A stretch of DNA of 36,055 nucleotides, from assembly GCA_002304425.1 (NCBI GenBank), contig NEUY01000005.1, forward strand, positions 1-36,055, in the 5' to 3' direction. The notes beneath the pieces were generated by a model. That model saw nothing but the letters and a program-made list of their open reading frames with translations. It ran no database searches and had not been told where the DNA came from. Each line of letters starts with the position of its first letter. Position 1 is the first letter of the stretch. The stretch comes from Opitutia bacterium Tous-C10FEB (GTDB taxonomy: Bacteria; Verrucomicrobiota; Verrucomicrobiia; Opitutales; Opitutaceae). Below are positions 12,402-20,385 of this stretch, piece after piece. A program made the position numbers and the translations under genes.

Positions 12402-13403
12402 TCAGGTTGAGCTAACGTTTGTTGAGATGGGAAGCTCCATTTGATTTTGTTTTCCGATGGCCCAAGCCTCAACGCCGCGCGCCCGCAGGGTGGTGGCGAA
12501 TTCCTGAGCGAAGCCGTGCAAGGTATAAACTATCTTGGGCTGAACCCGCTCAACGAGCGCCAGCAAATCGGGGAAATCGGCGTGATCCGAAAGCGGGAAG
12601 GCCTCATCACAGCCATAGCGGAATTTCGCACTCGGATCGAGCGCCCAGCCGGTAGCGATCGCGGTGCGTTTGGGATGAATCCACGTCAGCGGGGCAGTCG
12701 ACGCGCTCGCGGGTGGCGCGATAATCACGTGACCAGCATAGGCGTGCTCGTTGAGCAAACTATACGGCGGTAGTTTCATGCCCAACTCGGCATAACGCTT
12801 GGTCAGGCGGTGCCCGTGAGCATGCAACATAACCGGCAGACCGGCGCCTCCGACAATTTGCAATAATTCCTGCGTCTTACCCAAGGCATAGCCATAAAGC
12901 ACCGGTGTGATTTTGGCGGCCAGCGCCTCGCGACAAAAAGCGACAATCCGCTGCTCAACCTCCGCCGCTGGGGGTAAGACATAGCGCGGCAGTCCAAAGG
13001 TAGTCTCCATGATGAGTACATCCGCGCGCGGAGTTTCACACGGTTCCGCCGCGTGGCTCGTGCGAAGTTTGAAATCTCCTGTGTAAAGTAGCGTGCCTTG
13101 GTCCGTGGTGGCGTGCAGCATCGCCGACCCAAAGATATGGCCGGCGGGAAAGAGCTGAAACTCGGCGCCGAATTCCGCGGCCCAGGGCTGGCGGAAATCG
13201 AGGATCGTCTCGTGCCGCCGACCGGAGAGCCGCAAACGCATGAGGCTGGCCGTCGTGCGCGTCGCGACTATTTCGCGATGGGCGGCGATATGATCCCCGT
13301 GCGCATGCGAGACAAAGGAACGCAATTGGACGGCGCGAGCGTCGAGCCACCAGCCGATTTGGGGCAAATGGACCCCGTCTTTGAAACGAACTTCCCAGGA
13401 CAT
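12402..13403 (-). CDS. MBL-fold exonuclease-like protein (beta-CASP type)
   Basis: 333 residues, ATG at 13403. Metallo-beta-lactamase motif 2, SHAHGDHI (HxHxDH), lies near residue 33; motif 3 His is in PAGHIFGSAM and motif 4 Asp in LLYTGDFKL. The following ETTFG and the ALGKTQELLQ segment, then LSDHADFPDLLALV and TLHG, match the beta-CASP nucleases that include mRNA 3'-end processing factors and the ligase-associated DNA exonucleases. About 330 residues matches the latter, but no ATP-dependent ligase or Lhr helicase is in the window. It lies between the MMPL exporter (41 bases) and DUF3108 (11 bases). No signal peptide, so cytoplasmic. Nucleic-acid substrate cannot be specified. Confidence 0.82.
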   Translation of the reverse strand: MSWEVRFKDGVHLPQIGWWLDARAVQLRSFVSHAHGDHIAAHREIVATRTTASLMRLRLSGRRHETILDFRQPWAAEFGAEFQLFPAGHIFGSAMLHATTDQGTLLYTGDFKLRTSHAAEPCETPRADVLIMETTFGLPRYVLPPAAEVEQRIVAFCREALAAKITPVLYGYALGKTQELLQIVGGAGLPVMLHAHGHRLTKRYAELGMKLPPYSLLNEHAYAGHVIIAPPASASTAPLTWIHPKRTAIATGWALDPSAKFRYGCDEAFPLSDHADFPDLLALVERVQPKIVYTLHGFAQEFATTLRARGVEAWAIGKQNQMELPISTNVSST

Positions 13404-13444: not shown

Positions 13445-15772
13445 TTAGCGTCCGCCAGAGTTTTCGACGGCGCGATGTTTGGCAAATAACCAGCGGGCCA
13501 GGGCGGGCATGAGCAGCATTGCTCCGAGCATGTTGCAGAGGAACATAAAGGCGAGCAGGACCCCCATATCGGCTTGAAACTTAATGGCCGAGAAAGCCCA
13601 CGTGCCAACGCCAATGGAAAGTGCCAGCCCGGTGAATACGACGGATGTGCCCATGGTCGCGAAGGATTCGTATAAAGCGTCCTCGAGTGATTTACCTTCG
13701 CGCATTTTATCCATCAGCGCCGAGCAAAGATAGATACCGTAGTCGACGCCGATGCCAACCCCCAGCGCCACGACCGGCAGGGTCGAGGTTTTTAAGCCGA
13801 TCTGCAAATAGACCATAATCGCGTAAGCCAGATCCGACACGATGATCAGGGGCAGCACGACGCAAACCGTGGCCCGCCAAGAGCGAAATGAAACGAGGCA
13901 AAGCAGAATAATCGCAATATAGAGCCACATCACCATGGGGAATTGGGCTGATTCCACCACTTCGTTGGTGGCGGCCATCACGCCGACATTACCGGTCGCG
14001 AGCTGGAATTTGACTAGCCCAGTAGGGTGGTTCTCCCGAAATGCTTTAACCGCTGCGATGACCCGCTTGATGGTCTCAGCTTTATGATCCGTAAGATAAA
14101 TCATGACTGGGATTACACTGCCATCGTTATTCAAGAGACCGGTCGAGGTTTCTACCGGCGAAACTGATTGCGCCAACATGGCTTTATTTCGCGGAATGGT
14201 TCGCCACTTGAGACTACCTTCGTTCCAACCGGCGGATATCGTTTTGGCCACGTCGGTGAGCGCGAGGGTGGACTTAACCCCGGGAAGATTGCGCATCTGC
14301 CAGCTAAATTGATCGATTAAGGCCATGACCTCATGGTCAATCACCCCATTGGGAATCGTTTCGGCAATAACGGTGATCACATCAACTCCGATACTAAATT
14401 TGGCCGTGATCGCCGCCGTGTCTTGATTGTAGCGCGAGCTTTGCCGGAGCTCAGGAACGCCGGCATGCATGTCGCCAATTTTAACCTGCTGAGCCTTAAT
14501 GAAGCCGAATGTCCAGCAACCCACCGTCACGGCAATAATGATTAAAGCATTACGCCCCGTCGTAAATGTTACCAGCTTCCGCCACAGCGGCTGGAGCGCA
14601 AAACGACGAATATTAACCCGTTTGCGGAAATCCGGCGCCATTGTCGTGTAGGTCAGCAGGACCGGCAGTAAAAACCGATCGGTGAGGATGATGAGGGTGA
14701 CCCCTAGGCTGGCGGTGATCGCCAATTCTTGAATAATGGGGACTTTCACGAGGTAGATCGTGAGGAAGCCCACCGTGTCGGTTAGGATAGCGACGGTGCC
14801 CGGAATAAATAAATTGCTGAAGGAAGCACGGGCCGCGAGTTGTTCGTTACGGCCGACGTAAAATTCGTGCCGGAAAGATCGCAGCATTTGCGTCGCGTGA
14901 CTCAAGGCGATCGCGAAGACCAGAAACGGCACTAAGATTGATAGGGGATCGATGCCGAAGCCGAAAAGATAGAGCAGGCCCAATTGCCAGATCACGGCGC
15001 ACGCGGAAGTGACTAACGGGAGAATAGTTAAAATCAGCGACTGGGAAAAATAATAGAGCAGCCCAGCGGAAATAATTATGGCGATACCGAAGAAGAGGAG
15101 CACGCCACGCGCGCCATCGGTAATGTCGCCAATGACTTTGGCGAAGCCGATGATATGAATAGTGACCGCGGGGGATTGGTATTTAGCGCGAATCTTCGAT
15201 TCCAGCGCATCGGCTACTTCCGCGTAGACAAGTTTTCGGCCTGTTTGCGGATCAACTTCCAGTAACGATACGATAATAATCGCCCCCGTAAAATCATTGG
15301 CCACGAGCTGGCCGACGCGGCCTGATTTAATGATGTTTTGGCGTACCCGTTCGAGGCCGGCGGCAGTCGGCACAAAATCAGCCGGTATAATATTGCCCCC
15401 TTGCAGGCCATCTTCGACGACCTCGAGATAGCGGACATTCGGCGTGAAAATCGAAGTGACTTGCGCCCGATCGACCCCCGGCAGGTAATACGAGTCATCG
15501 GTGACCGCTTTGAGCGTTTGGAAAAAACTGGGCGTAAAAATATCGCCCTGCGCCGCGTGCAGCGCGATGACGATGCGATTAGCCCCGCCAAATTGCTCCT
15601 GATATTTAATGAAATTCCGAATGTATTCATGGTCGCTCGGCAGCTGTTTATTGAAACTGGCGTCGACGTGGGTCTTGCTCGCAAAAAAACCAAGCAGGAT
15701 GGTGAGACCGGCAAATACCGCGACCGTGAGGTGACGGTGCCCGAAGATTATTTTTTCAATCGCGCGCAACAT
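13445..15772 (-). CDS. MMPL-type RND exporter
   Basis: 775 residues, ATG at 15772. A tandem-duplicated RND architecture: a first helix near residue 15-30, a large periplasmic loop, five clustered helices (GVLLFFGIAIIISAGLLYYF onward), then the same pattern repeated in the C-terminal half. Helix 4/10 motifs VFAIALSHATQMLRSFRHE and GVGIGVDYGIYLCSALMDKM are the MMPL equivalents of the proton-relay region; the GVDYG Asp is a good candidate. MMPL proteins move lipids or other hydrophobic molecules across the envelope. The start is one base after the YCF48 stop. It is the third cassette member before the MBL and DUF3108 genes; substrate unknown. Confidence 0.9.
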   Translation of the reverse strand: MLRAIEKIIFGHRHLTVAVFAGLTILLGFFASKTHVDASFNKQLPSDHEYIRNFIKYQEQFGGANRIVIALHAAQGDIFTPSFFQTLKAVTDDSYYLPGVDRAQVTSIFTPNVRYLEVVEDGLQGGNIIPADFVPTAAGLERVRQNIIKSGRVGQLVANDFTGAIIIVSLLEVDPQTGRKLVYAEVADALESKIRAKYQSPAVTIHIIGFAKVIGDITDGARGVLLFFGIAIIISAGLLYYFSQSLILTILPLVTSACAVIWQLGLLYLFGFGIDPLSILVPFLVFAIALSHATQMLRSFRHEFYVGRNEQLAARASFSNLFIPGTVAILTDTVGFLTIYLVKVPIIQELAITASLGVTLIILTDRFLLPVLLTYTTMAPDFRKRVNIRRFALQPLWRKLVTFTTGRNALIIIAVTVGCWTFGFIKAQQVKIGDMHAGVPELRQSSRYNQDTAAITAKFSIGVDVITVIAETIPNGVIDHEVMALIDQFSWQMRNLPGVKSTLALTDVAKTISAGWNEGSLKWRTIPRNKAMLAQSVSPVETSTGLLNNDGSVIPVMIYLTDHKAETIKRVIAAVKAFRENHPTGLVKFQLATGNVGVMAATNEVVESAQFPMVMWLYIAIILLCLVSFRSWRATVCVVLPLIIVSDLAYAIMVYLQIGLKTSTLPVVALGVGIGVDYGIYLCSALMDKMREGKSLEDALYESFATMGTSVVFTGLALSIGVGTWAFSAIKFQADMGVLLAFMFLCNMLGAMLLMPALARWLFAKHRAVENSGGR

Positions 15773-15773
15773 C

Positions 15774-16757
15774 TCAAGGAATCGTGAGGCGCGTTACGCC
15801 CGCTTCACCAACGGCGACAATCGCCCCATCGTTAGTCTCGACCAAATCAGCCACGCTCGTGCTAAAGTCAGCAGGTTGCCAGGCTTGGAAGCTGCGTCCG
15901 GCATCACGACTGATAAAAAAATTTCCTCCTTGCCCGCCTAACACCAGCGGCCCGCGCCGAAGGCGAAGGCCGCCCATAATGAGAACTTTGACGTCAGTCG
16001 TCAGCGGCACCCAATGTTCGCCTTGATCATCAGAGCGAAAAATATGACCGCGTAGACCGTAGGTGATAATTTTCTGCGCCGTCAGCGGCAAGACGCCAAA
16101 AAGGGAACCGTCATAAGGAACTTCCAATTTTTGCCAGGTTTTGCCCATGTCAGTCGAAAGCAGGCATGAGCCACTTTCACCCGCGAGGTAAAGTGTGCCC
16201 TCGGGCCCAACGCTCATTCGATTATAATGCGCCTCATCCGTGGTGGGATGGCCGCTCTGCCAATGGAGGCCTCCGTCGATCGTAAAGGCGTATTTTCCGT
16301 AAGCGCCGACCGCAAAACCGCGCTGGGCGTTGAGAAATAAAACACTGAGATAAATTGTATCGAGTTGTTGGCCATCATCCTGGCGTTGCCAGGTTTTACC
16401 GCTGTCGCGCGTTGCAATAATAACTCCATCGTGGCCGACGGCCCAGCCATGTTGGGCATCGGGGAAACTGACGCTGGTCAGCAGCGCACGGGTCGGCGTG
16501 ATCTGCTGGGTCCAATGGCGCCCGTGGTCAGACGAAATTAAAACATGACCGTGATCACCCACCGCCACAAGTTGTTGGCCGGTATTTACGATGCTCAGCA
16601 ATAAGCTCCGATCTGCCAAGGGAGCTAATTCCGCCGAGTCTGTGGCGTGAGCCATCGGCAGAAAAATAAGCGCGCAGGATACCCGCCACAGGCTGGAGGA
16701 TTTATTTAAGGACCGGAGGCGATTAAGTTGCCGTTGCGCAAAAATTAGCATGCTCAC
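15774..16757 (-). CDS. YCF48/BNR-repeat beta-propeller protein
   Basis: 327 residues, start GTG at 16757 with AGGAG twelve bases upstream; an ATG at 16751 is an alternative. The N-terminus has a basic stretch, a hydrophobic core (LWRVSCALIFLPM) and a probable signal cleavage around AHA. The rest is tandem repeats such as AQHGWAVGHDGVIIATRDSG and AQRGFAVGAYGKYAFTIDGG, the pattern of HCF136/YCF48 propellers used in plants and cyanobacteria as photosystem II assembly factors. Here it is presumably a periplasmic partner of the MMPL exporter encoded one base downstream. This gene pair recurs next to DUF1302/DUF1329 in other Gram-negative bacteria. Precise role unknown. Confidence 0.85.
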   Translation of the reverse strand: MSMLIFAQRQLNRLRSLNKSSSLWRVSCALIFLPMAHATDSAELAPLADRSLLLSIVNTGQQLVAVGDHGHVLISSDHGRHWTQQITPTRALLTSVSFPDAQHGWAVGHDGVIIATRDSGKTWQRQDDGQQLDTIYLSVLFLNAQRGFAVGAYGKYAFTIDGGLHWQSGHPTTDEAHYNRMSVGPEGTLYLAGESGSCLLSTDMGKTWQKLEVPYDGSLFGVLPLTAQKIITYGLRGHIFRSDDQGEHWVPLTTDVKVLIMGGLRLRRGPLVLGGQGGNFFISRDAGRSFQAWQPADFSTSVADLVETNDGAIVAVGEAGVTRLTIP

Positions 16758-16795
16758 TTTGATAAATATCTCCTAATAGCTGCGCGGCAGGCAAG

Positions 16796-16823
16796 AAAAA
16801 GGGCGGCCGGTTGAGGGCCGCCC
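16796..16823 (-). terminator. Intrinsic terminator or attenuator between DUF1329 and YCF48
   Basis: On the minus strand a perfect 8-bp GC stem, GGGCGGCC with GGCCGCCC, has a 7-base loop and is followed by TTTTTCTT. It begins 18 bases after the DUF1329 stop and lies 39 bases before the YCF48 start. It would end or reduce transcription in the middle of the cassette, so that the outer-membrane and periplasmic proteins are made in excess over the exporter. Confidence 0.82.
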
Positions 16824-16840
16824 GCAGAGGCTAAATAGCG

Positions 16841-18199
16841 TTAGCGCACGCCATCCTGCCGCAAGGTCGCCGGAGTGTAGTCCTGCGGCGCGCGGGTGAG
16901 GCCAAAATTATACATCTTAGTTTCGTTATCCAAGCCGATGGCCACATAACGACCTGCAATCAAATCGGTATGCACCTCGAGCGTGCTCCAGAAAACTTGG
17001 GCTTCATAGTAATTGATGCAATGGGCCTCCGAGACGCGCCAGAGTTGGCCGCGGCCATCATATTGATCAACGGCGAGCACCTGCCAGCTATCTTCGTCGA
17101 TATAGAACGTGCGCTGGGCGTAAACGTGGCTGGTGCCCGCTTTCAGCGTGGCGTTAACCACCCAGACCCGGTGTTTCTCGTAGCGCGTGAGGCTTTGATT
17201 GATGTGTAGCGGCTTGAGGATGTCGCTATATTTGATCGAATCGCTATGCAGCTTATAGGAATTGTAGGGCACGATCATTTCTTTTTTGCCGACCAATTTC
17301 CAGTCGTAGCGATCCGGTGCTCCATTGAACATATCGAATTGATCGGAAGTGCGCATGCCGTCTGCGGCGGTGCCGGGATTGTCGTAAGAGACATTAGGCG
17401 CACGGCGCACGCGCCGTTGGCCGGAATTATAAAGCCAAGCCCGGCGTGATTCCTTCACTTGGTCGATGGTCTCGTGCACAACTAAGATTGAACCAGCCAG
17501 CCGAGCTGGGGCCGTCACCGCCTGCTTGAAGTAGATTAAAACATTATCGAGGTCCTTCTCCTGCATGCCTTCGCGGGCATAATTGAAAAGAAATTCATCT
17601 TCGAAATCGACCAAGGTGTAACTGCCATTGCGCTGCGGTGCCGCTTGGCTAACGGTGCGATCGGCGGCCACTCCGCGGTAGCGGGTGAGATGATTCCAAA
17701 TCACCTCGAGCCCGTTCTGTGGTACTGGGAATGGAGTGCCAATAGTTGAACCGGAGATACCGTTACCCCCTTCGGTGAGTGCGGCGGTAGTCGCATTTTG
17801 CTTGGTCGCATCGTAAACCCGCTGCGGATTAGAGACGCTGCGATGCGACGGGTAAACGGGCATCGAGTAATCCGAGTAGGCCTTCAGCAAAGCTAAATGC
17901 CCCACGCTTAGTTCCGCCGTATATTTATCCGCATTGGCCGCAGTAATCGTGAATAACGGGGCTTCGTCCTTGTACGGGTCGGGATGATGCATTCCCGCGG
18001 TGTAGCCCGCCGGAGGGGTGGTGATGCCGCCGGTCCAAGCCGGAATTGAACCGTCGGCGTTGCCGGCCTTTTCACCGCCCAGCGGGGTGAGGTCGTTGCC
18101 GAGTCGGTTCGCGTCGCCCACAGAAATAGCGGCGAGAGCGCCCAGAGTAAGGGAGAGGAGGGTGCTGCTCGCGATCAAGTAACGGATTCCAGTTTTCAT
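16841..18199 (-). CDS. DUF1329-family periplasmic protein
   Basis: 452 residues, ATG at 18199. A signal peptide covers about residues 1-24 (ending LGALAA). The mature start shows the family hallmark DLTPLGGEKAGNADGSIPAW followed by TGG. The rest, with LVDFEDEFLFNYAREGM, RRVRRAPNVSYDNPGTAADG and TFYIDEDSWQVLAVDQYDGRG, fits DUF1329, which is described as having an outer-membrane lipoprotein-sorting (LolA/LolB-like) fold. It is presumably soluble in the periplasm. It follows DUF1302 by 19 bases, the standard order of the pair in Gram-negative genomes, and is followed by a strong hairpin terminator. Cargo not determined; a hydrophobic ligand is the working hypothesis. Confidence 0.92.
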   Translation of the reverse strand: MKTGIRYLIASSTLLSLTLGALAAISVGDANRLGNDLTPLGGEKAGNADGSIPAWTGGITTPPAGYTAGMHHPDPYKDEAPLFTITAANADKYTAELSVGHLALLKAYSDYSMPVYPSHRSVSNPQRVYDATKQNATTAALTEGGNGISGSTIGTPFPVPQNGLEVIWNHLTRYRGVAADRTVSQAAPQRNGSYTLVDFEDEFLFNYAREGMQEKDLDNVLIYFKQAVTAPARLAGSILVVHETIDQVKESRRAWLYNSGQRRVRRAPNVSYDNPGTAADGMRTSDQFDMFNGAPDRYDWKLVGKKEMIVPYNSYKLHSDSIKYSDILKPLHINQSLTRYEKHRVWVVNATLKAGTSHVYAQRTFYIDEDSWQVLAVDQYDGRGQLWRVSEAHCINYYEAQVFWSTLEVHTDLIAGRYVAIGLDNETKMYNFGLTRAPQDYTPATLRQDGVR

Positions 18200-18218
18200 G
18201 ATAGTGGAGTGGGTAAAA

Positions 18219-20207
18219 TTAGAATGAATACTTCAAGTTGCAGGAGACGAAATCACGATCGCTGATGAGATTATAGCGATCGGCACCAAAGAAATTAATG
18301 TAACGCAGATCGAACGCCCAAGCATTTTGGAAGGTAAACTCTGCGCCGATGGTAAGCGATTTCCGCCCGTGCAGGAAATTGCCCAAGGGCAAGGGCGTGT
18401 TCCCGCCGACATCGTGAGCGTAGATCACGGTCGGGGAAATATTAACCCCGCGGAAGACGTTATTGTAATCAAGGCGACCAACTAATTGATAACCCCAAGA
18501 AAAGCTGTCCGCGAAAGCCGAGGCAGGCTCCGACAAGGGAGCGATATTTGAAGCATTATTGCCGGAATTTGTCATGTAGTTCACATCGCCACCCACCATC
18601 GTACCGGGACCATCAAAACGTAAGACGTTCTTGCTCGGGAGGTCCGCGTTGACGAAGCCGGTCTCAGCCAAAAGGGTCGTCTGGGCTGACCCGAGGATGC
18701 CTTTACCCACCCAAGTGGCGGTCATCTGCCCCGTCGTTACTTTGAGTCGGCGATAGCCGGGGACGTAGGTATTCAGCTGACCCAAGAAATTACCGATTTG
18801 GTTATTGGCACCAAAAGCAGGGTTAATTGAGGAGAATGCGGCGAAAAGTAATTCGACGTCATCAACCTGTAGCGGCTGACTTTTCCGGTAGCTGATTTCA
18901 CCCTGCAGGGCGATGCCGTGCACGCTCGTATTGAAGCTGGCTCCAACTAAGCCGATGTCTTCCGGGAATTCGATCAAGTAGCGGCCGGTACCAGCGGCAG
19001 TCAGGAAGCCGATGGTCCTAGCTCCATTCGCAATTGTGACCGTGGAGGGATAAAATGCCGCGTAAGGCGCTAATGACGGAGCCAAGGAGCCAACCGGCAC
19101 ACTGGTCAGAGCAGAACCCACCAGTCCGGGTAAAATAGCCGAGACGGTGGCAGCAGGAATTCCCGCTGCAATCATGGCTGGGGCCAGATTCGCGCTAGCC
19201 AAGCTGCTCGCGGTTGCTTGCACCAAGGCTGAACTGATCGCATCCCTCGGGGTGAGCGCTGAAATGACCGGGAGGCGACTGTGATAATTCATGGCGAACA
19301 AGCCGAATTCCGTGTCCTTCAAACCGCGCGCTAGCCAGCGAAGATTGACGCCGTATTGCCCGGCGAAACCAGGCTCATTGTCAGTCCCACGGGGCACCGC
19401 GCCGAGATTGGCGGTATCGGCGATAGCGCCGAATCCGAGCATGACCTTAGTGCCGCCTTTGGGCGCAAAGTCATTCGAACTAAAATATGTACCAGGAGGA
19501 TCAATGCGGGTGCGATCCCAGCCGAGGAGGTAAAAAGCTTCTAACGACAAATCCTCGTTTAGACCTAAGGCGGCAGAAACCATGTTAACCGGACGAAGCG
19601 CTTCTTTAAGCTCTGAGCCGGGCGTGCGGAGTTTCGCCACATCAATTGGGTTAATGGAGTTGATCCCGTTGGGAATAAAGGTGCTCTCACCCCAGCTCAA
19701 TACTTGGCGACCCAGGCGAAGGGTGGCGGGCATTTCGCCAATCGTCTCCTTGAAATAAACGTAGGCATCGAGTAATTCCGCTCCGGTACTGACGATTTTA
19801 TTGGCCTCATCGCTGAGCGCAGTCCGATCGCGCGCGCCGTTGGAATTTACTAAGTCATTGAAATAATAGCCGCGGACGAACAGCCCGGCGTGCTGATACT
19901 TAATAAGGAGATCGTGATTCGCCTTCATGAGGAAGGAAGCAACTCCACTGTTCCGGTAGTTCAAATTGCCATCGTCGTTGTTGTTCGAGCGCTGAAGACC
20001 ACCGGATCCGAGCCCGTAGAACTGTGGATCGGCGGGATTAACGCGGTAAAGCCCGCCCACTGAAAGCGTGGTGTCAAAGTTGCCTTTGACGTCACCAAAT
20101 TCAAAAACAAAGGCTTGGGCGCACGGCGCTTGGGCCAACAAAGCCAAACCGGCGATAGCCGATAGGCGCAGACAAGAAGAGACAGCTTTGCTTAGGTTCA
20201 TAGACAT
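18219..20207 (-). CDS. DUF1302-family outer-membrane beta-barrel protein
   Basis: 662 residues, ATG at 20207. A signal peptide is predicted to about residue 32 (LLAQAPCAQA). The mature protein begins with FEFGDVKGNFDTTLSVGGLY, typical of DUF1302, and contains LRLGRQVLSWGESTFIPNGI (residues 164-183) and LRPVNMVSAALGLNEDLSLE. It ends NLKYSF, a C-terminal aromatic residue as used by the BAM machinery. Residues about 317-407 are an unusual Ala/Pro/Ser-rich insertion between the conserved HSRLP and EFPEDIGL elements, probably a loop. The gene heads the DUF1302-DUF1329-YCF48-MMPL cassette and diverges from uvrA. A channel or binding barrel for a hydrophobic substrate is the likely role. Confidence 0.9.
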   Translation of the reverse strand: MSMNLSKAVSSCLRLSAIAGLALLAQAPCAQAFVFEFGDVKGNFDTTLSVGGLYRVNPADPQFYGLGSGGLQRSNNNDDGNLNYRNSGVASFLMKANHDLLIKYQHAGLFVRGYYFNDLVNSNGARDRTALSDEANKIVSTGAELLDAYVYFKETIGEMPATLRLGRQVLSWGESTFIPNGINSINPIDVAKLRTPGSELKEALRPVNMVSAALGLNEDLSLEAFYLLGWDRTRIDPPGTYFSSNDFAPKGGTKVMLGFGAIADTANLGAVPRGTDNEPGFAGQYGVNLRWLARGLKDTEFGLFAMNYHSRLPVISALTPRDAISSALVQATASSLASANLAPAMIAAGIPAATVSAILPGLVGSALTSVPVGSLAPSLAPYAAFYPSTVTIANGARTIGFLTAAGTGRYLIEFPEDIGLVGASFNTSVHGIALQGEISYRKSQPLQVDDVELLFAAFSSINPAFGANNQIGNFLGQLNTYVPGYRRLKVTTGQMTATWVGKGILGSAQTTLLAETGFVNADLPSKNVLRFDGPGTMVGGDVNYMTNSGNNASNIAPLSEPASAFADSFSWGYQLVGRLDYNNVFRGVNISPTVIYAHDVGGNTPLPLGNFLHGRKSLTIGAEFTFQNAWAFDLRYINFFGADRYNLISDRDFVSCNLKYSF

Positions 20208-20285
20208 AAAACGCAGAGGTTCAGGATGAGGAAGCCATTAGCGACATAGGCTAACGGCTCTGCTTAGGGGTAGCAGGTAATAAGG

Positions 20286-20294
20286 TGCTATAAT
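20286..20294 (+). promoter_or_regulatory. Candidate extended -10 promoter for uvrA-dinB
   Basis: In the 178-base gap between the divergent DUF1302 and uvrA genes, TGCTATAAT (TG-n plus perfect TATAAT) lies about 90 bases before the uvrA ATG. No good -35 is visible (TTAGGG at 20264 is poor), consistent with an extended -10 type. No GAAC-N4-GTTC or TGTTC-N4-GAACA LexA-like site is seen in the gap. Confidence 0.45.
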
Positions 20295-20385
20295 TACGGA
20301 ATCACAAGCGAGAAACATGGCTCCCAAAATAGCGAATGCACTAATCCCACTTTGACGCGCGAACTAAAACCGCAACATTGGTGCC

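Follow-up and report, generated by a model that had tools for sequence, protein, structure and literature searches.

The chromosomal locus analysed here probably encodes a tetrapartite RND transporter of the AmeABCD type, with a LolA-like carrier, attenuation at an internal hairpin and an apolar cargo. The window, i.e., the whole stretch of 36,055 nucleotides that was analysed, is an entire contig of an assembly of 1.42 Mb (70% complete). The genes for DUF1302, DUF1329, YCF48 and MMPL proteins follow one another in this order on its minus strand, from 20207 to 13445 (Table 1). In the proposed mechanism, the proton gradient would drive the inner-membrane MMPL pump, which would exchange an apolar molecule with DUF1329 acting as a LolA-like carrier in the periplasm; the YCF48 propeller may help the pump to dock or to assemble, and the port in the outer membrane would be formed by the DUF1302 barrel. 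In many members, the hairpin after DUF1329 would attenuate transcription.

Table 1. Features of the cassette (positions in the window).
Feature	Position	Strand	Details
DUF1302 outer-membrane barrel, AmeA-type	18219..20207	-	662 aa; Pfam 1.9e-159; signal-peptide-like N terminus; C-terminal Phe
Helical insert of DUF1302	18993..19232	-	residues 326-405, three helices in the model
DUF1329 periplasmic protein, AmeB-type	16841..18199	-	452 aa; Pfam 1.6e-158
Modelled LolA-like carrier domain of DUF1329	16844..17725	-	residues 159-452; Z 20.6 to 9tp6, 19.4 to 4z48
Intrinsic-terminator-like hairpin and T tail, between DUF1329 and YCF48	16793..16823	-	recurs in relatives
YCF48/BNR beta-propeller, periplasmic, AmeC-type	15774..16757	-	327 aa, GTG start; Pfam PSII_BNR/YCF48 5.5e-22
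MMPL/RND inner-membrane pump, AmeD-type, HAE3-like	13445..15772	-	775 aa; Pfam MMPL 1.9e-27
Invariant Ser-His, presumed TM4	14897..14902	-	residues 291-292; 60/60 Opitutales-type and 17/17 plasmid rows
Invariant Asp-Tyr, presumed TM10	13739..13744	-	residues 677-678; 77/77 rows
Divergent intergenic region shared with uvrA	20208..20385	.	seen in the sequence; uvrA on opposite strand in 66/82 stretches

The four open reading frames are each complete and are separated, from DUF1302 to MMPL, by 19 bases, 83 bases (including the hairpin) and 1 base. Together with the Pfam matches, these coordinates confirm the initial annotation, which had described four complete, tightly spaced genes in one direction. 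The verrucomicrobial host that it proposed is also borne out: named relatives place the host in the Opitutaceae, and the best named DUF1329 match is 98% identical. With genes for DUF1302, DUF1329, a YCF48-like protein and an RND pump arranged in a conserved order, the cassette is of the AmeABCD type. This kind of cassette has been known since 2018; its Opitutaceae host and its wide conservation there are new, and no paper on an AmeABCD-type cassette in Verrucomicrobiota was found among the open-licence papers listed.

Among 387 genomes of the phylum, 42 have a DUF1329 match at E 0.001 or better, and 25 (window included) encode the full-length protein: 23 belong to the same family, one to the same order and one lies elsewhere in the phylum, the remaining matches being partial. 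Within the family, DUF1329 is matched in 86 of 150 genomes, in 79 at full length by our own reading of the rows. The 82 loci compared (the window and 81 others) come from these 79 genomes, one of which has two loci, and from two genomes outside the family. Matches to the full set of four, in this order, occur at 77 of the 82, some of them incomplete where a contig stops; contig ends truncate the five remaining loci. On the opposite strand, uvrA is present in all but 16 of the stretches, nine of which are under 12 kb. One Opitutaceae genome (G010) has two complete cassettes (L046 and L056), with uvrA in just one of the two fetched stretches. Distribution was followed on an rpoB tree covering 100 family genomes out of 150, and the cassette is present in 55 of those 100. 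Among the other 50, 27 had no rpoB match at 1e-60 and 23, including the window's own genome, were dropped, mainly for partial matches or low completeness. Cassette presence needs 12 changes on this tree, compared with 33 when shuffled, and at least 10 of them fall on well-supported branches. With midpoint rooting, one side of the tree, comprising 15 genomes, lacks the cassette. The small number of changes and the common place by uvrA fit early gain and repeated loss, gain and loss being indistinguishable by the change count itself. We propose mainly vertical chromosomal inheritance in the Opitutaceae, with frequent loss. A contig labelled Thermoanaerobaculia (L191, CALZKB010000046.1) carries an Opitutales-type cassette with a 68% identical DUF1329, reflecting either transfer or mis-binning.

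The cassette is chromosomal and lies by uvrA and dinB, and no catabolic or lipid genes adjoin it. The initial annotation extended the block downstream to an MBL nuclease, DUF3108 and an MFS transporter. This extension is not supported: different genes lie 3' of MMPL in three relatives, of which L051 has an AI-2E-type transporter gene there, while L032 and L034 both have MacB/FtsX genes on the opposite strand. MBL, DUF3108 and MFS occur in that order, behind other sequence, at 4 of 25 cassette loci, many stretches being too short to tell, and we do not count them in the cassette unit. The MBL protein itself (12402-13403 of the window) resembles ligase-associated DNA-damage exonucleases, below the model cut-off (TIGR04122, 195 bits, cut-off 325); uvrA and dinB lie on the cassette side opposite MBL.

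By sequence, no solved structure is found for DUF1302. The AlphaFold2 model (pLDDT 83.1) is a barrel, in which we count some 18 long strands from the DSSP listing, with short turns on one side, long loops on the opposite side and Phe as the last residue. Foldseek of this model returns general porins and AlgE, with TM-scores by query length of 0.31-0.40 among the matches listed. If the N terminus is periplasmic, the strand count would place the helical insert outside the cell. The region aligned with the insert is longest in the 18 Opitutales rows (52-93 aa), shorter in three proteobacterial rows (L198, L199, L206; 37-47 aa) and shortest in the remaining 16 (4-27 aa), including the outlying verrucomicrobial L041 (16 aa). 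For DUF1329, sequence search against solved structures gives only two chance-level matches (E 0.4-0.5). Its model, built from 48 sequences (pLDDT 86.7, pTM 0.87), contains a domain (residues 159-452) whose top structural match is LolA3 of P. gingivalis (Z 20.6, 2.6 A over 236). The structure of a Desulfovibrio DUF1329 protein matches the same domain (Z 19.4), and four LolA-family structures match the model at Z 15-21. DUF1329 is modelled here as a LolA-like carrier. This model, the outer-membrane-type barrel modelled for DUF1302 and the published AmeABCD (PMC6394551) support the earlier suggestion that the four proteins span the envelope as a conduit for a hydrophobic molecule.

Searched by sequence against solved structures, the propeller matches YCF48 proteins, and the pump matches HpnN and mycobacterial MmpL exporters. 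The pump also scores above the Pfam cut-offs of ACR_tran (32.3 vs. 28 bits) and Sterol-sensing. Its best NCBIfam model is TIGR00921 (HAE3; E 9e-51, 172.8 bits, under the cut-off of 351.9); the HpnN model gives 61.2 bits, below its cut-off of 751.85, and the BstA model is far under its own. No membrane-fusion protein or TolC-type factor, as in HAE1 (AcrAB-TolC-type) systems, occurs among the four cassette and three downstream proteins. The kinship with HpnN and the MmpL exporters, the LolA-like carrier and the chromosomal place by uvrA in most loci would also suit a system that exports one of the cell's own envelope lipids to the outer membrane, as the hopanoid transporter HpnN does. We regard this as unlikely, because the well-supported changes of presence on the rpoB tree argue for a dispensable function, and hopanoids make a poor candidate: SQHop_cyclase_C is matched in 10 family genomes out of 150, five of them above the cut-off and two of these strongly, whereas 79 have the cassette.

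The pump was aligned with 77 relatives, 60 from named Opitutales-type loci and 17 from plasmids. Two residue pairs, Ser-His and Asp-Tyr, are invariant, and we take them to lie at TM4 and TM10, respectively. In three distant verrucomicrobial MMPLs, acidic residues occupy both positions. In AcrB, the relay places an acid in TM4 and a base in TM10. It is conceivable, at a level we would call speculation, that AmeD-type pumps constitute an RND class of their own, in which the proton relay is mirrored (TM4 carrying the His and TM10 the Asp, the reverse of AcrB) and acyl lipids are drawn inward from the DUF1302 port through the LolA-like carrier, as a proton-driven lipid importer made in two expression tiers through the internal terminator. 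The excerpted text of the AmeABCD paper mentions neither this residue pair nor an internal hairpin (PMC6394551). The genes for the distant verrucomicrobial MMPLs adjoin small (~270 aa) DUF1329/LolA-like frames (L058 6659-9758, also near the MMPLs of L057 and L060), suggesting that MMPL and a LolA-like carrier may form a broader module.

The 83-base gap contains a GC stem of 8 pairs, followed by TTTTTCTT. RNA folding of a 106-nt stretch around the hairpin is unremarkable overall (z -0.89), and the hairpin is credible because of its recurrence in relatives rather than the fold energy of this stretch. The 160 bases 3' of each gene were scanned under one criterion, with 10 shuffles each. A terminator-like hairpin follows DUF1329 at 31 of 81 loci (shuffles 1.5), the other 50 having none by this criterion; the counts after DUF1302, YCF48 and MMPL are 2/80 (shuffles 0.4), 0/79 (0.9) and 3/70 (0.7). 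Across 80 named loci, from genomes partly shared with the main set, the hairpin is found after DUF1329 in 41 of 79 cases, compared with 1/80 for DUF1302, 1/73 for YCF48 and 1/62 for MMPL. Proteobacterial plasmid loci have it after DUF1329 in 2/18, DUF1302 in 0/18, YCF48 in 1/17 and MMPL in 3/17, and thus display no preference for the DUF1329 site. The stems vary among loci (GGGCGGCC, GGGCGACCC and GACGGCGGGC types), so that a structure recurs rather than one sequence. Its position after DUF1329 suggests two expression tiers. We infer that the hairpin attenuates transcription, so that the cell would make much port and carrier but little propeller and pump; another promoter could lie 3' of the hairpin. 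In a table for a related cluster of Desulfobacterota ORM2a, the DUF1329 protein ranks 4th, and the YCF48 and MMPL proteins rank equal 36th and 45th (PMC13101534), an order that agrees with attenuation, though it comes from another phylum. The cassette promoter likely lies within the intergenic region shared with uvrA; a sigma-70 scan yields 8 sites against 7.8 expected, an uninformative count, and none of them is on the cassette strand in that region.

Since the hairpin separates the halves, the locus could also consist of two merely adjoining systems, one made up of DUF1302 and DUF1329 and the other of YCF48 and MMPL. Judging by locus tags, P. putida has the halves at separate sites (PMC10866462). 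In Indioceanicola and in Caballeronia SBC2 they are encoded on opposite strands, and on an Azospirillum plasmid seven genes intervene. The initial annotation had named homologues regularly found singly as grounds for refutation, and some do occur: two P. aeruginosa plasmid stretches have DUF1302-DUF1329 alone and one from Comamonas has YCF48-MMPL alone. Such cases stand against the 77 of 82 loci that keep all four genes together in order, and the four P. putida genes have correlated fitness phenotypes (PMC10866462). Two independent systems are thus very improbable, and a single four-part transporter is the preferred reading. A second YCF48 gene lies near DUF1302-DUF1329 on the Indioceanicola plasmid (L199 5862-7016), apart from the YCF48 beside MMPL.

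Plasmid settings were taken from 19 stretches out of 60 matches listed. By our own sorting, in which some stretches fit two classes, eight adjoin genes for degradation of aromatic or other compounds, six fatty-acid or CoA genes and three other genes (metal resistance in two of these), and two are without annotation. In the DUF1329 tree, the Opitutales rows, L041, Indioceanicola and four P. aeruginosa rows come together (SH-aLRT 83), apart from a group of nine proteobacterial rows (98) with mixed settings, acyl-CoA and CoA genes among them. In the MMPL tree, Indioceanicola again groups with the Opitutales rows (90), but P. aeruginosa L206 and L207 join the remaining proteobacterial rows (99); MMPL is absent from the two further P. 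aeruginosa stretches. Indioceanicola alone of the five proteobacterial rows is therefore near the Opitutales on both trees. For the pump, the tree comparison covers MMPLs of plasmid loci. Genes for acyl-CoA ligase, thiolase, esterase, fatty-acid desaturase or acyl-CoA dehydrogenase are found in three of the five near stretches, and the Indioceanicola cassette genes lie near acyl-CoA ligase, esterase and fatty-acid desaturase genes. These settings of near relatives weakly suggest an acyl cargo; some of the distant group are likewise flanked by fatty-acid or CoA genes, which therefore are no marker of the near one.

Gene content of the 150 family genomes was compared with cassette presence. Acyl-CoA dehydrogenase occurs in 44 of the 79 cassette genomes vs. 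19 of the 71 others (raw p 0.0005; by genus 21/30 vs. 7/19), and FadB-like proteins, hand-picked from the listing by E-value and frame length, in 30/79 vs. 10/71 (raw p 0.0015). FadL has no association with the cassette (31/79 with, 29/71 without). The flagellin control gives 42/79 vs. 42/71; COX1 is near-universal (144/150) and thus unusable as a control. A pairs test on the 100-genome rpoB tree gives no support for co-occurrence with beta-oxidation, either for FadB-like proteins or for acyl-CoA dehydrogenase (1.6 vs. 0.7 and 2.5 vs. 1.0 pairs). The cargo is probably an apolar molecule, and our best guess is a fatty-acyl lipid. The initial annotation regarded the cargo as not established, which is too sweeping given the experimental data. 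AmeABCD deletion mutants grow less well on limonene and further apolar monoterpenes, and when de-energised they accumulate slightly more Nile Red (PMC6394551). In P. putida, growth on Tween 20 requires the relatives (PMC10866462), and a Delftia DUF1329 gene is reportedly required for normal growth on phenanthrene (PMC13101534). The passages on PP0765 transcripts (PMC3325844) and Delftia nanopods (PMC3110197) do not settle the function. The deletion, Nile Red and Tween 20 data are compatible with either transport direction. General efflux, in which toxic apolar compounds of the habitat (terpenes, solvents, fatty acids) are expelled as proposed for AmeABCD, accounts for the deletion phenotype and the slightly raised Nile Red, and suits a chromosomal setting without catabolic genes. 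However, real-time Nile Red efflux is almost identical in wild type and AmeABCD mutant (PMC6394551), and the Tween 20 requirement is explained equally by uptake (PMC10866462). Efflux is a possible reading that we hold only tentatively.

DUF1302 and DUF1329 have no agreed function, and a widespread, non-catabolic version in the Opitutaceae shows the core machine apart from the pollutant-degrading contexts of its discovery. It also offers testable handles: the Ser-His/Asp-Tyr pair for energy coupling, the hairpin, which predicts unequal expression, and the LolA-fold carrier for ligand binding.

Among the closest known systems, AmeABCD of Castellaniella defragrans has the same order of DUF1302, DUF1329/LolA, YCF48-like (COG4447) and HAE3 RND genes (PMC6394551, 2018). 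AmeB belongs to the LolA superfamily, a feature shared by the modelled fold of DUF1329 (PMC6394551). The two are likened by family and gene order rather than by sequence; AmeABCD is monoterpene-induced and lies in a monoterpene-degradation island, whereas the present cassette lies by uvrA and dinB without catabolic genes. In P. putida, PP_0765/PP_0766 and PP_2018/PP_2019 encode DUF1302, DUF1329, a periplasmic protein and an RND-type pump (PMC10866462). By locus tag they form two separate gene pairs, with a Tween 20 phenotype, whereas the cassette here is contiguous. Contact prediction weakly favours a position of 0766 between 0765 and 2019 and strongly pairs 2018 with 2019 (PMC10866462). The 'nanopod' cluster of ORM2a, from a benzene-degrading enrichment, also brings DUF1329, YCF48 and MMPL together, but two genes separate DUF1329 from YCF48 (PMC13101534). 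BstABC is an RND/MMPL pump for lipids (sterols) with periplasmic and outer-membrane partners, although BstB and BstC belong to other families (PMC10942540), and HpnN is an RND/MMPL lipid pump without such partners (PMC6394551). The LolA/LolB lipoprotein carriers have the LolA fold in common with the DUF1329 model. Their partner is LolCDE, whereas the encoded neighbour of DUF1329 in the Opitutaceae cassette is an RND pump.
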